From NCBI GenBank assembly GCA_016202645.1, contig JACQOF010000047.1:1-6245 (forward strand): 6,245 nt of DNA, in the 5' to 3' direction. Of this stretch, positions 1,272 to 6,245 are shown piece after piece. The stretch comes from a bacterium. GTDB lineage: Bacteria; Lindowbacteria; 2-12-FULL-62-27. Position numbers and translations under genes: made by a program. How positions within the stretch are numbered: the stretch's first letter is position 1; each line of letters starts with the position of its first letter. A model generated the notes under the pieces. The model searched no databases. It was not told the origin of the DNA and worked only from the letters and a program-made list of their open reading frames with translations.

Positions 1272-1979
1272 ATGACGACGAAATCCCGGAGAAGCGCCCA
1301 AGACACCGATCTCAGGAATCAGCCGGCCTATACTTTGGCCGAGGCTGCCCGATATCTCAAGCTGCCGCCAGCAACGCTGCGCACATGGGTGGCCGGCCGG
1401 CCCTACCCCAAGGCTGAAGGCGTGGGACGCTTTCAACCGCTGATTCATCCGCCCGCACGCCAACCGGCAATCTTGTCGTTCTGGAACCTAATCGAGGCCC
1501 ACGTGCTCAGGTCGTTGCGGACCGACCACGGCGTTTCAATCAAAGCGGTTCGCCAGGCATTGGCGTATTCGGAGAAATCACTCCGGATCGACCGGCTATT
1601 GCTGCGAAAGGAACTCCGGACCAACGCCGGGAAGGTCTTCCTGGATCGTTACGGTGAACTCATAGAGCTGTCCGCGTCCGGCCAGCTCGCAATGCGGCAG
1701 CTCCTGGAAGAACACCTCAAGCGCGTCGAATGGGATGAATGGCAGTTCCCCATCCGCCTGTATCCCTTCCTGTCCGTCGAAGCGCATGCGGCGGAAAAAG
1801 CCATCGCCATCGATCCGAAAATTGCTTTCGGCCGCCCGGTGATGATACGCGCCGGCGTGTCCACCGCCACAATTGCAGAGCGCATCGATGCAAATGAATC
1901 GGTCGAGGAACTGGCCGCCGACTATGGCCTGAGCGCATCCGAGATCGAGCAGGCGGTACTCTTTGAGCGCGCCGCGTGA
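1272..1979 (+). CDS. vapB45-like: VapB45-like antitoxin: HTH plus DUF433
   Basis: 235 residues, close to the M. tuberculosis VapB45 (Rv2018) length as I recall it. The N-terminal part (about 19-60: YTLAEAARYLKLPPATLRTW, then basic residues and FQPLIHPP) looks like a MerR/excisionase-type helix-turn-helix. The middle (about 65-165) is mostly helical with a WNLIEAHVLRSLR segment. The C-terminus (about 178-233: IAIDPKIAFGRPVMIRAGVS, EELAADYGLSASEIEQAV) is a clear DUF433 domain, the part expected to hold the toxin. It would neutralise the PIN-like toxin encoded directly downstream and probably repress the operon through its HTH. The start is ATG at 1272; the ribosome binding site is weak. The last 17 bases overlap the toxin gene, typical of paired toxin-antitoxin genes. 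Confidence 0.85.
   Translation: MTTKSRRSAQDTDLRNQPAYTLAEAARYLKLPPATLRTWVAGRPYPKAEGVGRFQPLIHPPARQPAILSFWNLIEAHVLRSLRTDHGVSIKAVRQALAYSEKSLRIDRLLLRKELRTNAGKVFLDRYGELIELSASGQLAMRQLLEEHLKRVEWDEWQFPIRLYPFLSVEAHAAEKAIAIDPKIAFGRPVMIRAGVSTATIAERIDANESVEELAADYGLSASEIEQAVLFERAA
1951..1956 (+). promoter_or_regulatory. Ribosome binding site that supports the TTG start of the toxin gene
   Basis: AGGCGG lies inside the antitoxin gene, 6 nt before the TTG at 1963. It is the only purine-rich site near a usable start in the toxin frame. No ATG or GTG in that frame precedes the conserved VFFTDRDLG motif, so this site decides the start. Confidence 0.5.
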
Positions 1980-2406
1980 ACCCCTCGTATTCTTCACTGA
2001 TCGCGATCTCGGCACGCGATTTCCGGACATTCTTACCGAAGCGGGACTGAACGTCAGGCGGCATCGCGATCACTTCCCGCCCGACTGCCCGGACGAAGTC
2101 TGGTTGGAAGCCGTCGGTAAGAACGGATGGATCGCGATTAGCCACGACACCCGCATCCGTTACAAGCCGAATGAGCTGGCCGCCGTTGTGCGCCATCGCG
2201 CGCGGCTGTTGGTGGTCATCGGAAAAGCGCCGTTCCCGCAACTCGCGAAGCACTTCGTCGCAACGGCACTGAAAATCGCCGAGTTCGTGGAGCAACATCA
2301 AGCGCCGTGGATCGCGAAGGTCTATCGGCCGTCGATGACGGAGTTGGTGAAAAATCAGGACGCGGCTGGAGGCGTTTCGCTTTGGTATCCGCCCAAGAAG
2401 AGTTAG
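1963..2406 (+). CDS. vapC45-like: VapC45-like PIN-like toxin
   Basis: 147 residues. It has the signature of the PIN-like proteins paired with DUF433 antitoxins (M. tuberculosis VapC45, Rv2019, is of similar size). Acidic residues expected in the metal-binding nuclease site are present: D13 and D15 in VFFTDRDLG, D44 and E45 in DCPDEVW (41-47), and D62 in WIAISHDTRI. The family is taken to be Mg2+-dependent ribonucleases that stop growth when the antitoxin is lost; the RNA target here is unknown. The start is TTG, overlapping the antitoxin by 17 nt, which suggests translational coupling and a low toxin yield. No frameshift is seen and all candidate catalytic acids are kept, so it is probably active. 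It converges with the Nmad operon. Confidence 0.82.
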   Translation: MSAPREPLVFFTDRDLGTRFPDILTEAGLNVRRHRDHFPPDCPDEVWLEAVGKNGWIAISHDTRIRYKPNELAAVVRHRARLLVVIGKAPFPQLAKHFVATALKIAEFVEQHQAPWIAKVYRPSMTELVKNQDAAGGVSLWYPPKKS

Positions 2407-2565: not shown

Positions 2566-3210
2566 TCACTGTTCTCGTACTGCATCGTCACCGACCACGC
2601 CGCACGACCTACTGCGATGGCAGGCGCCGCGACGCGGCTTGCTCGTCGGTGCGCCCAGCACCTTCTTCCGGGTCCCGTTCCAGATTTCTTGCTTCAGCGC
2701 CTCCAGTTCCATACGCAACGGCTCGTCGTGACGGCTGCGATGCCCCCGCCCGAGGTGCTCTACTGCGTCCTTGATCAATGAGTAACGAGCTTTATACTCG
2801 GCGCTCCCATTCGCGCCGAAGTATCGAAAGTCATTGCTTAACAGCACGCTGGCTTTCGAATACTCGGGATGCTCACCGAGATCATGAACGAGATGCTCCG
2901 GGCCATGATGGAGCGCGCCTTCACGCCACACGAAACGGTTTCCACGCCGTTCGTAAATGCAGTCTTCGCGGCGCTTAAATTTCTTTGCCGTGTAATACTC
3001 GCCACTGGACGGTTTCTCGGCTACGCGCGCGATGTAGAGCAGCGGGTTGTCAGTGCGCAGCGACTTGGCTGCAAAGCCGAAGATCCAATCACCCGGCTTC
3101 GCAGCGCTCCGAATCATGGGTTTGCAGATTGCAAGCGACAACAACCCATCCTGTATGCACGGCGCTCCACCGCTGTCCGCGGTGAGCTTGTAGAAGTAGA
3201 TCTTCGCCAC
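2566..3210 (-). CDS. Nmad2-family putative nucleotide modification protein
   Basis: 214 residues, about full length for the family. Recognised from the N-terminal pattern IYFYKLTADSGGAPCIQDGL, the LAICKPMIRSAAKPGDWIFG block (26-45), LLYIARV (57-63), IYERRGNRFVW (85-95), HLVHDLG (106-112) and VLLSNDFRYFG (122-132). Nmad2 (nucleotide modification associated domain 2) was defined computationally from association with DNA/nucleotide-modifying gene sets. To my knowledge no reaction has been demonstrated, so the catalytic role is unknown. The C-terminus carries an Arg-rich CHRSRSCG (197-204) that could bind metal or nucleic acid. The start is GTG at 3210, 9 nt after the Nmad3 stop, with only a weak ribosome binding site, so it is probably translated by coupling. 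It is the last gene of the operon. Confidence 0.75.
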   Translation of the reverse strand: MAKIYFYKLTADSGGAPCIQDGLLSLAICKPMIRSAAKPGDWIFGFAAKSLRTDNPLLYIARVAEKPSSGEYYTAKKFKRREDCIYERRGNRFVWREGALHHGPEHLVHDLGEHPEYSKASVLLSNDFRYFGANGSAEYKARYSLIKDAVEHLGRGHRSRHDEPLRMELEALKQEIWNGTRKKVLGAPTSKPRRGACHRSRSCGVVGDDAVREQ

Positions 3211-3219
3211 GAAAAAGTC

Positions 3220-3930
3220 TCAGTTGTTAGCCTGCACGAGTGACGGCCCCTGCCTTTCCAGCCACCGCATGAACCGTGGAGAATCAAAGAATCGCGGCAA
3301 CCGTGCACTGCGCTGCAGATAGCCGTCCTTGACCGACAGTCCACCCCATTCCTTCAGGAGATCCTTCCTCACGCGATAGGCGCGATCGCGGTAATCACCG
3401 ATCGGAATGCAGCACCGAAACCGGCCGGAGATCCGTGGCCGACCGCGGACAATAATATCTACGGTGTTGAGCGGCAGCACGCGCCGGGAATGCGCGTTGG
3501 TGTCGCGCTGGGACGCGAGAATGTCAGTCGCCCGCACGAGATCATTCACGACGAACAGGCCGACCAGCGCATAAACAAGTTGCGCAGCGCCGTTCGTATC
3601 CGCAAGCCCAGCGTAAAAAACGATCAGGTCACCGTCCCGTAGGTTCGCCCGCAACTGCTTGGCACGCTCCCCTGAGTCCCCGTAGGTGAGATGTTCGAAA
3701 TCCGGGTCCAGGTGCATGTAGCGCATCTGCAAGTGCAGCGGCAATTCAACTCCGAATTTCGCCAGCGCGGGTCGCAGCACAGTGTAGGGCTTCTCCATGC
3801 CCGGGTACACAGGTCTGTTTTCTGGAATGGCAACATAGACGAATTCGCCAGAGTCAACGCAGACCGGTCCGTTCCACGATCCGCCTCCCGGACTGAGGTC
3901 TGCGCCAACCCGAACAAGAAGGCCGTTCAT
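3220..3930 (-). CDS. Nmad3-family putative nucleotide modification protein
   Basis: 236 residues from ATG at 3930; an in-frame TTG directly before (3933) would add one residue but is less likely. Family-type blocks: LLVRVGADLSPGGGSWNGPV (4-23), FVYVAIPE (30-37), MHLDPDFEHLTYGDSGER (72-89), GDLIVFYAGL (100-109), LVYALVG (118-124), NAHSRR (145-150), CCIPIGDYRDRAYRVRKDLL (173-192) and WGGLSVKDGYLQRSAR (195-210). I recognise this as Nmad3 (nucleotide modification associated domain 3), a computationally defined family with no biochemistry that I know of. The conserved His/Asp and Arg-rich blocks look enzyme-like, but the reaction is unknown. Its ATG shares one base with the stop of the preceding small reading frame (TGATG), and Nmad2 follows after 9 nt, so the two Nmad proteins probably work together. 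Confidence 0.75.
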   Translation of the reverse strand: MNGLLVRVGADLSPGGGSWNGPVCVDSGEFVYVAIPENRPVYPGMEKPYTVLRPALAKFGVELPLHLQMRYMHLDPDFEHLTYGDSGERAKQLRANLRDGDLIVFYAGLADTNGAAQLVYALVGLFVVNDLVRATDILASQRDTNAHSRRVLPLNTVDIIVRGRPRISGRFRCCIPIGDYRDRAYRVRKDLLKEWGGLSVKDGYLQRSARLPRFFDSPRFMRWLERQGPSLVQANN

Positions 3931-4085
3931 CAAATCACTTCCGTCACCCTCTGCTCGACACAGAGTTCACTCGGTACAATGTCCGGCCCGTATACGATCA
4001 GGTAACCAAGCGCTTTAAGCCACACGAAGGTGGCGTCTTCGACGATAGATTCGGAGGACGGATGAGGGCCCACCACACATTTCAC
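3930..4085 (-). pseudogene. Fragment resembling the N-terminus of type I restriction HsdR (51 codons)
   Basis: The frame starts with GTG at 4085, overlapping the ATPase stop as GTGA, and ends at TGA 3930-3932, overlapping the Nmad3 ATG as TGATG. It encodes 51 residues. The core ESIVEDATFVWLKALGYLIV followed by YGPDIVPSE and EQRVTEVI closely resembles the first ~50 residues of many HsdR subunits (pattern: E..VEdAaL.WL.aLGY.vlhGPDIaPgE...ER..y.eVvL). HsdR is normally about 1000 residues; no nuclease or helicase part follows. The simplest reading is an hsdR stub left by a deletion that joined its 5' end to the Nmad3 gene. The alternative, a genuine small operon protein that keeps ribosomes loaded between its neighbours, is made credible by the neat overlaps on both sides. 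No other gene lies in the ATPase-Nmad3 gap. Confidence 0.55.
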
Positions 4086-6136
4086 TGATTAGAAGCAACC
4101 AGCCGAAGCGGGACTGGGTCGCCACGAACGTCCCGCGTGGTGACCACTGGACCACTCCGACTCCAGCCGTCGAGTTCGATTACTACGGTCCGCTGCTGCG
4201 ATGATCGTGGTCGAAGCTTTCGAGCCAAAAGATTTCCAAATCGAACATCGTGAGTGGATACGCAGAGCTGCCGTTGATCTTTGGTACGCCGAAGTAGATC
4301 AACGAGCCCCAGCAGGTTAATATCGTCCAAGCTCTGAAGTGGGTCATCCAGGATCGTAGCTTCGAGTGGTGGCCGTTCAACACCCAAGTTGAGTGACAAA
4401 AACGTGCAGACTGCAAGGGCATTCATTTGCGAACTCGAGAGAACAGTCCTCGGAGCATTGCAGTCAACACCTGCGAGAGGATCACTGACAACGGTTGAAA
4501 GCTGACCACGACCTCGCACCACGGAAGCCAGGAATCGTACTATGCGGAAGGCCGGATGAACGTCTATGCGGCTGTAAATATCGCTGAGCAATGGTTCAAT
4601 CTCCTTCACTCGCTCAGTGACAATGCGTGATGCAGCCTCTCGAAGAGCCTCTATGACTCGTTGCGCCTGCTCTCCCGTGGAGGCACGCCCTGCGAGCTCC
4701 TTCTCGTCCTGCTGAAGCTTTATGCGGGCTGCCTCAATCTCTCGTTGCAGCTCAAGGATAGTAGCCCGGTCTCCGACCCGACCGAGCTGAAGGGCAAACG
4801 CCTCGCCAGTCTCTTGCGCCCCGACTAGCGCATCGATCCTCTCTCGTGTGGACCTTGCCGCCGCACTGACAGCGGGTACTCGATCGGCAGACATGGCCGG
4901 CTCGATGCCGAACTCGGCGAGCTGCTTCGTGATGGCTAGCTCACGCGCCTCGAAGTCCCTAGCAGCCTGCTCCGCCGTTCGAAGCGCAAGCTCCGCAGCA
5001 GAAAGCTCTTTCTCCTGTGACGAAAGCGCTGTTAATAGCTGCGGTAACGTCTCCAGTTTGGAAGAAGAAGGCGCGCTTTGGTTTCCTCCCGCCGCAATTG
5101 CTTCGAGTCGACGTCGCGTTGCTTCCACGTCGTAGTCTTGCTCGCAGACCGGACATTTGTTCCCGAGATGCTTGAGCGCGAGCCCGGCGAGGGCTTGCAT
5201 CTGCTCCGATTTTTCCTTTAACTCTGCTTGTAACCGACGAACCTCGGCCACGCGTGCCTGCTCCAAGGTCACCTTGTCCCGTGTCTCTTTCAGCTGCTGC
5301 TGATGAGCAGCAACTGTGTCCCGTAGCGGCGCCAGGTTGGGTTTGGATTTTCCGGCAATCCCGGAAAGCTCCTTACCAAGGGAATCGAGAAGTTGCTCTC
5401 TTCGTTCTGCGGCACGACGTGCAGCGTCGAGTTGCTTGATGGCGGCGTCAATGGCGCCGGCAGCTTCCCGAGAGGCTATAGGAACGGAGTTAATGCTAAC
5501 ACCCAACGACTGCAGACACCCCCACCAGTTAGCCCACAGTTGCTCATCGAGACTATCTTCGCTGGAGACCAGTCGGCTCTTGAGTTCGGCCAATCGAGAT
5601 TCCATGGTGATAAGCCGTGTACGAATTGGCTGCAGCTCTGCTGCTCGGCTGTTGGTAATCGTGCTCCATGCCTTCTTTTCCCTCTCAAGTTCGGACTGAA
5701 GATCGGTCACCCTGCCCGCACCGACAAGTTCGCTTACGGCGGTGAACCTCTCTTGCTCCGTCACTGCGTCTATGAAATCGCGCACGAGATCCTGCTGTAA
5801 GTACACGCTTCGGGTCAGGACAGTAGCCAGCGCTTCTGGAGGACTTGCCGCGGTGGCAGCCTCTCTCCAGATCAACCGAATCAAACGTCCCTCAGCCTCC
5901 GGTCCACGAACCGACCCTTCGGGTGATTCCACCGAGACGCGCATCTCCCTTCCGTCAAAGATTCGCGTGACGGTGATGGGCGGTGATTTTTGTTCGCGGC
6001 TGAGTCGGAGTACGACCCGGGCTTGGCCGGACTCTGCGAATCTGCACAACAATTGTGTGCTATCACTGCCGAGTCGCGGGATGCGACCGCTAAGCGCCCA
6101 AAGCACAGCGTCAAAGAGGGAAGCGGAATATGTCAA
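4082..6136 (-). CDS. Rad50/SbcC/SMC-like ATPase with zinc hook, N-terminus lacking Walker A
   Basis: 684 residues from a TTG at 6136, the only start in the frame after a TAA at 6164-6166. It opens with YSASLFDAVLWALSGRIPR, the helix that in this family directly follows the Walker A loop. Then come a Q-loop-like VYLQQD (111-116), coiled coil (about 140-320), a zinc hook CPVC (328-331), a second coiled coil (about 365-515), an ABC signature LSSSQMNALA (566-575), Walker B ATILDD (593-598), the D-loop SLDD and the H-loop STHD (627-630). Known for the family: two lobes join head to head around ATP and act with a nuclease on DNA ends. Odd here: the first ~40 residues, including GxxGxGK[ST], are missing, so ATP binding by the canonical route should fail. 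It may be 5'-truncated. The Walker B Asp-Asp instead of Asp-Glu is, as I recall, common in this subgroup. It is coupled to the following frame by GTGA. Confidence 0.85.
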   Translation of the reverse strand: MTYSASLFDAVLWALSGRIPRLGSDSTQLLCRFAESGQARVVLRLSREQKSPPITVTRIFDGREMRVSVESPEGSVRGPEAEGRLIRLIWREAATAASPPEALATVLTRSVYLQQDLVRDFIDAVTEQERFTAVSELVGAGRVTDLQSELEREKKAWSTITNSRAAELQPIRTRLITMESRLAELKSRLVSSEDSLDEQLWANWWGCLQSLGVSINSVPIASREAAGAIDAAIKQLDAARRAAERREQLLDSLGKELSGIAGKSKPNLAPLRDTVAAHQQQLKETRDKVTLEQARVAEVRRLQAELKEKSEQMQALAGLALKHLGNKCPVCEQDYDVEATRRRLEAIAAGGNQSAPSSSKLETLPQLLTALSSQEKELSAAELALRTAEQAARDFEARELAITKQLAEFGIEPAMSADRVPAVSAAARSTRERIDALVGAQETGEAFALQLGRVGDRATILELQREIEAARIKLQQDEKELAGRASTGEQAQRVIEALREAASRIVTERVKEIEPLLSDIYSRIDVHPAFRIVRFLASVVRGRGQLSTVVSDPLAGVDCNAPRTVLSSSQMNALAVCTFLSLNLGVERPPLEATILDDPLQSLDDINLLGLVDLLRRTKDQRQLCVSTHDVRFGNLLARKLRPRSSQQRTVVIELDGWSRSGPVVTTRDVRGDPVPLRLVASNQ

Positions 6137-6245
6137 TGGCTTTGAGACACCTCGGTTAAGAAATTAGTGAGCAAAGCGGGTGTCGTCGTCAGGTCATGGG
6201 TACTCTCCTTGGGTTCGATGATGAGTTTGGGCAGGTTGATTCCGA
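6133..6245 (-). CDS. C-terminal end of an unrecognised upstream gene (partial)
   Basis: 36 codons are visible, open at the right window edge and ending at TGA 6133-6135. They begin GINLPKLIIEPKESTHDLTT and end LLTNFLTEVSQSH. The stop overlaps the ATPase start as TTGA, as is usual in a translationally coupled operon, and no competing frame is open across this stretch. I do not recognise the family. From operon logic it could be a nuclease partner of the ATPase, but nothing in these residues shows that. The last few codons could also be out-of-frame readthrough if the ATPase 5' end was lost by a deletion here. Confidence 0.45.
   Translation of the reverse strand, partial: GINLPKLIIEPKESTHDLTTTPALLTNFLTEVSQSH
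6148..6153 (-). promoter_or_regulatory. Possible ribosome binding site for the TTG start of the ATPase
   Basis: On the minus strand GAGGTG lies 11 nt before the TTG at 6136, somewhat far but usable. It sits inside the end of the upstream reading frame, so coupled re-initiation at the TTGA overlap would also serve. Confidence 0.35.

Follow-up and report, generated by a model that had tools for sequence, protein, structure and literature searches.

Many EVE, YTH, ASCH and related PUA-like proteins bind modified bases, and TIR proteins are known as effectors or as producers of signals. The Nmad2 and Nmad3 protein families are likewise already known, and the literature searched, with most subscription journals outside its scope, yielded no demonstrated reaction for the Nmad families. 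An NMAD domain of unspecified type is named in a 2026 study, in the legends to its figures of validated and of predicted defense systems (PMC13092281). Foreign genes in type I restriction loci have also been described: defense genes are known to be embedded between hsdS and hsdR, as for DarTG2 in E. coli (PMC12255303), and in Vibrio cholerae TgvAB lies inside the type I gene cluster (PMC11411939). Here, we analyzed a pair of adjacent Nmad3 and Nmad2 genes on contig JACQOF010000047.1 (assembly GCA_016202645.1) of a bacterium of the Lindowbacteria lineage. The window is the entire contig of 6245 bases, and the source genome of 2.9 Mb is 82% complete and belongs to a phylum represented by only three genomes in the set analyzed. 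Membership of the two window proteins in their families is not in doubt; the pair, the exchange of its partners, its predicted PUA-like fold and the point of entry at hsdR, all considered below, were not found in the same literature.

The Nmad3–Nmad2 module and its relatives

Nmad3 and Nmad2 form a two-gene module with partner exchange that recurs in many phyla. When 84,980 species genomes were searched for Nmad3, 46 loci were obtained (designated by L numbers), 35 of them close, and the neighbor of Nmad3 in these 35 was Nmad2 in 14 cases, a family termed X in 12 (two broken and two fused), a family termed Y in two, and unrecognized in seven. Nmad3 is the first gene in all same-strand pairs except L057, and the junctions of the Nmad pairs are short across phyla, about 35 nucleotides or less, with a gap of 9 nucleotides in the window. 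An independent random sample of 386 genomes, with the source genome of the window included in the counts, contained Nmad3 in 12 genomes and Nmad2 in four; besides the source genome, one of these harbored both, with Nmad3 directly before Nmad2. On viral contigs, one Nmad3–X pair and two further X genes were found and Nmad2 was not, while 50,697 phage records gave no match to Nmad3 or Nmad2.

The members of family X are about 220 amino acids (aa) in length (for example L055:6061-6702), carry the conserved motifs HLRRP, DPFWEFGSFG and CHxxNL, are fused to Nmad3 in L049 and L059, and match no family in Pfam or PHROGs. Family Y (about 160 aa) is represented in two different bacteria by L052:3522-3995 and L054:5782-6276, which are 61% identical and convergent with Nmad3, and the one member tested has no Pfam match. 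A common motif order had suggested that X and Y might be distant Nmad2 proteins; because the profile comparison was weak, the families are kept separate from Nmad2. Distant Nmad3 genes (27–38% identity) were also observed in haloarchaea (L070-L080; L023:10001-12058), and the one on the Halorientalis plasmid of L023 lies beside 7-cyano-7-deazaguanine synthase-like and PfkB kinase genes.

The two small proteins of the window had been named Nmad3 and Nmad2 in a preliminary description made from the sequence alone, and the Pfam profile assignments upheld both names, with scores above the curated cut-offs (Table 1). The likely start of Nmad3, judged from its relatives, is the ATG at 3930. Alignment with relatives revealed no break in the conserved motifs, which are HLDPDF, YGD and NAHxRR in Nmad3 and YKLTxDxGGAPC, ICKPxIR and GDxIxGF in Nmad2. 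Within PF18754, the window Nmad3 belongs to a divergent branch that matches only profile positions 3–195 of 247. Within PF18753, canonical Nmad2 proteins encoded behind TIR genes score 200–273 bits, whereas the window Nmad2, encoded behind Nmad3, scores 96 bits. PHROGs and PADLOC gave no informative family for either protein.

The TIR-linked relatives of Nmad2 were found on plasmids, where genes whose products are 28–33% identical to the window Nmad2 immediately follow a small TIR gene in eight plasmids from Alphaproteobacteria, Betaproteobacteria, Cyanobacteria and Bacteroidota (L096-L103, e.g., L097:4534-5639). Both TIR genes tested against Pfam were ThsB_TIR, and all five following genes tested were canonical Nmad2. 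MazG_C, UDG and 5-hmdU kinase genes (by Pfam) were observed near these pairs, as were thymidylate synthase or cGAMP-activated phospholipase genes. In the phylogenetic tree, the TIR-linked Nmad2 proteins form one clade (support 97/99, with one non-TIR plasmid member) separate from the window type; this statement disregards row T_L096b, a wrongly chosen TIR protein. These plasmid pairs resemble the window pair in being compact two-gene arrangements with Nmad2 second, behind its partner, but that partner is a Thoeris ThsB-like TIR rather than Nmad3, and MazG_C, UDG or 5-hmdU kinase genes lie nearby. Around the window-type pairs, tblastn revealed no MazG_C, UDG, 5-hmdU kinase or thymidylate synthase genes, except the unrelated thymidylate synthase of L051.

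Structure prediction suggests that Nmad3 and Nmad2 share a PUA-like (EVE/YTH/ASCH) fold. The AlphaFold models are confident, with a predicted local distance difference test (pLDDT) score of 95.1 and a predicted template modeling (pTM) score of 0.92 for Nmad3, and 90.4 and 0.88, respectively, for Nmad2. The best match of the Nmad3 model was to the EVE-like protein PH1033 (Z 8.5), with ASCH, YTH, VcaM4I and THYN1 filling the match list, and the best match of the Nmad2 model reached Z 7.2, with the EVE/YTH/ASCH PUA-like superfamily occupying nearly all of rows 1–36. One ASCH protein among the structural matches is a ribonuclease (PMC5615036). Foldseek E-values of both models were weak (0.03 and above), with only weak ASCH-type matches among viral structures, and the Nmad2 and Nmad3 profiles gave no PUA-like structure match by sequence among PDB sequences; the fold is therefore likely rather than proven. 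The likeness to the EVE/YTH/ASCH proteins, among them modification-dependent restriction enzymes such as VcaM4I and the McrB N-domains, lies in the predicted fold of both Nmad proteins, whereas significant sequence similarity is absent, the conserved residues are others and the Nmad proteins carry no fused nuclease. A GDxxxFY strand motif in Nmad3, by our own reading, also recalls EVE domains and may serve as a lead.

The hsdR site and the neighboring ATPase gene

Directly before Nmad3 lies a short open reading frame (ORF) of 51 aa, which overlaps the ATPase frame by GTGA and the Nmad3 start by TGATG. It corresponds to the hsdR-like fragment of the preliminary description and matches the HSDR_N protein of L067 at its N-terminal end. 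No match to it was obtained in plasmids, and no HsdM_N or HSDR_N match was found elsewhere in the 82% complete assembly, in which only this HsdR N-terminal fragment is present. An equivalent fragment was observed in L041 (Burkholderiaceae), where the mini-ORF at 9855-10001 is 56% identical over 34 residues (3e-8) to the full-length HsdR of the same locus at 12041 and likewise enters Nmad3 through a TGATG overlap. The gene order of L041 is methylase, specificity subunit, a 1266-aa protein, GmrSD, DarT, macrodomain protein, hsdR mini-ORF, Nmad3, Nmad2, a 194-aa protein and HsdR. Since the window and L041 carry equivalent hsdR fragments, the 5′ end of hsdR seems to have been the entry point of the Nmad pair in each of them. 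A further possible N-terminal hsdR fragment precedes the embedded genes at L041:6222-6287, with a match of 22 residues and an E-value of 0.5 that may be due to chance. As with DarTG2 of enteropathogenic E. coli and TgvAB, a foreign pair appears in a type I locus, and L041 itself holds DarTG and a GmrSD-type gene; however, the window contig keeps only the 51-codon hsdR fragment. Such fragments before embedded genes hint at a route by which cargo enters type I loci.

The defense-like setting proposed in the preliminary description is borne out by this type I restriction fragment in the window and by restriction genes near the relatives. Type I restriction genes occur near close Nmad3 relatives in L041, L044, L053 and L067, McrBC lies directly behind the Nmad pair in L037, from the cultured carrier Bradyrhizobium australiense, and GmrSD and DarTG precede the pair in L041. 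Of the six canonical Nmad3 loci that came from the random sample, HsdM is near in L032 and HsdR in L033. Four type I methylases were observed in 634 kb around 41 Nmad3 genes, against 0.17 expected from an HsdM_N density of 0.27 per Mb in 98 genomes (Poisson P about 3e-5), an enrichment that is approximate, since N6_Mtase matches were counted in the loci while the background density is that of HsdM_N. In L036 and L038, tRNA genes (L036:4389-4465 and L038:11028-11117) lie no more than about 320 bases away from the Nmad pair, which suggests that islands inserted at tRNA genes there; no general rule of tRNA-site insertion was adopted, a tRNA gene at this distance being found only in these two loci.

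The large frame upstream of the 51-aa ORF encodes an SMC/Rad50-like ATPase that matches the LmuB profiles of Lamassu and ABC-3C systems over most of its length. An AAA_13 match (5e-6) falls under the Pfam cut-off, and a CPVC zinc hook, Walker B and H-loop regions are visible by eye. The N-terminus is missing: the alignment to the LmuB profile (611 positions) begins only at position 39, the absent part should hold the Walker A motif, and no such motif is encoded in any of the three frames of the ~110 bases at the contig end. The truncation may be a true loss or an artefact of the contig end. The window ATPase differs from Lamassu in lacking Walker A, and neither LmuA nor LmuC was recognized on the contig, which terminates at 6245, only 109 bases upstream of the ATPase frame. 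In view of the AAA_13 match and the zinc hook, the RloC anticodon nuclease, which has a C-terminal anticodon nuclease domain, was also considered; the window frame stops soon after the C-terminal motifs of the ATPase.

No close relative of the ATPase was found in 98 diverse genomes, 369 genomes of one class, plasmids or viral contigs; none of its plasmid relatives exceeds about 39% identity, and this over only a portion of the protein, although one of these relatives sits in an annotated ABC-three-component operon. With tblastn, the search detected no match to it in the DNA around the 46 Nmad3 relatives or in 12 whole Nmad3-carrying genomes, and it is therefore treated as a neighbor that looks like a broken bystander rather than a partner of the Nmad pair. 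The preliminary description had made this ATPase a candidate component of the system, to be refuted if its adjacency to Nmad2 and Nmad3 did not recur in other genomes; the Nmad2–Nmad3 adjacency does recur, but the survey of neighborhoods revealed no recurrent linkage to the ATPase, whose copy here also lacks Walker A. In L061, another SMC/AAA-type ATPase gene (L061:5886-10001) lies upstream of an Nmad3–X pair, with a response-regulator-like gene between them, and has no tblastn similarity to the window ATPase.

A possible sensor–effector pair and its alternatives

We tentatively read the mobile Nmad3–Nmad2 module as behaving like a sensor–effector defense pair lodged in a restriction locus. 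In its fuller form, this reading describes a new defense module that couples a PUA-fold effector, Nmad3, with exchangeable PUA-like sensors (Nmad2, X and Y) for modified nucleotides, in parallel to TIR–Nmad2 pairs, where a Thoeris-like TIR protein would fill the effector position, a proposal we regard as possible but somewhat doubtful. Nmad2, X or Y would recognize a modified base or nucleotide that belongs to an invader, and Nmad3, as the constant effector, would use its invariant His, Asp, Asn and Arg residues to act on nucleic acid or nucleotides; the window copy would be such a pair inserted at the start of hsdR, next to an SMC-type ATPase gene that is unrelated to it and lacks its ATP-binding end. 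Because Nmad3 and Nmad2 each keep their place while the partner swaps, and because TIR is known as an effector or signal-making type, Nmad3 is probably the effector and Nmad2, X and Y probably sense, with a function that, judged from gene context and exchange, would be directed against invaders. The intact genes, their recurrent pairing with exchange of partners, the methylase enrichment and the hsdR fragment are observed, whereas the fold is predicted from models and the roles are inferred from context. The conserved pair, its interchangeable partners, the predicted reader fold and the links to restriction and TIR genes provide a concrete functional hypothesis for the Nmad families, which the small, intact Nmad gene pairs make easy to test. 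If true, it would add a new sensor–effector type to the defenses against modified invader DNA.

Several observations weigh against this reading. The structural Z of Nmad2 stays below 8, the PUA-like match is absent at the sequence level as described above, no nuclease motif was identified in Nmad3, and the profile comparison fails to unite X or Y convincingly with Nmad2. The enrichment of methylases is estimated from few loci and assumes independent placement, and about 30 of the 35 Nmad3 loci have no recognized restriction gene nearby, although their annotation is partial. Since most loci lack such a gene and the haloarchaeal relatives have no recognized partner, a housekeeping role is possible.

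Nmad2 and Nmad3 might instead both be readers, forming a complex that marks modified DNA and brings in another protein as the nuclease, such as the neighboring type I, GmrSD or McrBC enzyme. The predicted folds resemble those of modified-base readers, restriction nucleases stand beside the pair in L037, L041, L044 and L067, and EVE and DCD domains are associated with type I systems (PMC7641849). However, most loci have no recognized nuclease next to the pair, which makes a fixed outside nuclease unlikely, and the invariant polar residues of Nmad3 seem too many for a plain binding pocket, so that we consider this explanation rather unlikely. A pair of enzymes acting in the metabolism of nucleotides or bases, with an ASCH-type hydrolase or RNase-like activity that serves to make, repair or remove modified nucleotides outside defense, would agree with the MazG_C, UDG, 5-hmdU kinase and thymidylate synthase genes near Nmad2 relatives, with the ribonuclease among the ASCH matches (PMC5615036) and with the thymidylate synthase that follows the pair in L051. 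It nevertheless seems unlikely to us, as the nucleotide genes go with the TIR clade of Nmad2 and not, by tblastn, with the window-type pairs, apart from that unrelated L051 gene, and as the patchy distribution and the enrichment at restriction loci fit defense better.

Two small adjacent genes with a scattered distribution, an exchangeable partner and occasional fusion would also be expected of a toxin–antitoxin or other selfish module kept by addiction, with no role in sensing. Fusions of Nmad3 to X and the seven of 35 Nmad3 genes without a recognized partner are, however, a poor fit to a toxin that needs a separate antitoxin, and both proteins have reader-like predicted folds, which makes such a module quite improbable. 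A three-part machine in which the ATPase, Nmad3 and Nmad2 act together would agree with their frames lying on one strand, overlapping or nearly touching, and LmuB-like ATPases are real defense components; yet the ATPase is absent beside all other Nmad3 genes fetched and from the 12 carrier genomes, its window copy is without Walker A, and the hsdR fragment separates it from Nmad3. We judge this arrangement, which the survey of neighborhoods already largely refutes, to be highly improbable.

Remaining features of the contig

Table 1. Coordinates, strand and supporting evidence for the features annotated in the window.
Feature	Position	Strand	Evidence
Nmad3 (PF18754)	3220..3933	-	1e-19, 71.6 bits vs Pfam cut-off 27
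Nmad2 (PF18753)	2566..3210	-	3e-27, 95.7 bits vs Pfam cut-off 26.1
51-aa ORF, HsdR N-terminal fragment (type I restriction)	3930..4085	-	40% over 35 aa to HSDR_N protein of L067
SMC/Rad50-like coiled-coil ATPase, LmuB/ABC-3C-like	4082..6136	-	PADLOC LmuB 4e-35, profile 39-597 of 611
ORF, C-terminal 36 residues (GINLPKLIIEPKESTHDLTTTPALLTNFLTEVSQSH*)	6134..6245	-	Frame reading; cut by contig end
HTH/DUF433 antitoxin-like gene, flanking, outside the Nmad module	1272..1979	+	DUF433 2e-10, HTH_66 3e-7
PIN_10 toxin-like gene, flanking, convergent with the Nmad pair	1978..2406	+	PIN_10 8e-19

On the minus strand, the order from 5′ to 3′ is the end of an ORF, the ATPase frame, the 51-aa ORF, Nmad3 and Nmad2. 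The frames and junctions given for this strand in the preliminary description were confirmed, with the exception of the TTGA at 6136, which is not a credible ATPase start. A tblastn search of plasmids with the 36-aa terminal fragment gave nothing at E ≤ 10. The terminal 109 bases (6137-6245) have a G+C content of 50.5%, compared with 57.1% in the ATPase frame, which may mark a junction or an artefact of the contig end. As for the toxin–antitoxin and Fic remnants that had been proposed nearby, the former are the DUF433/HTH and PIN_10 genes, whereas the putative Fic ORF (877-1140) has no Pfam match. An AAA_14/DUF4143 gene, cut by the contig start, occupies positions 1-741 and matches the PADLOC candidate PDC-S01 (4e-69).

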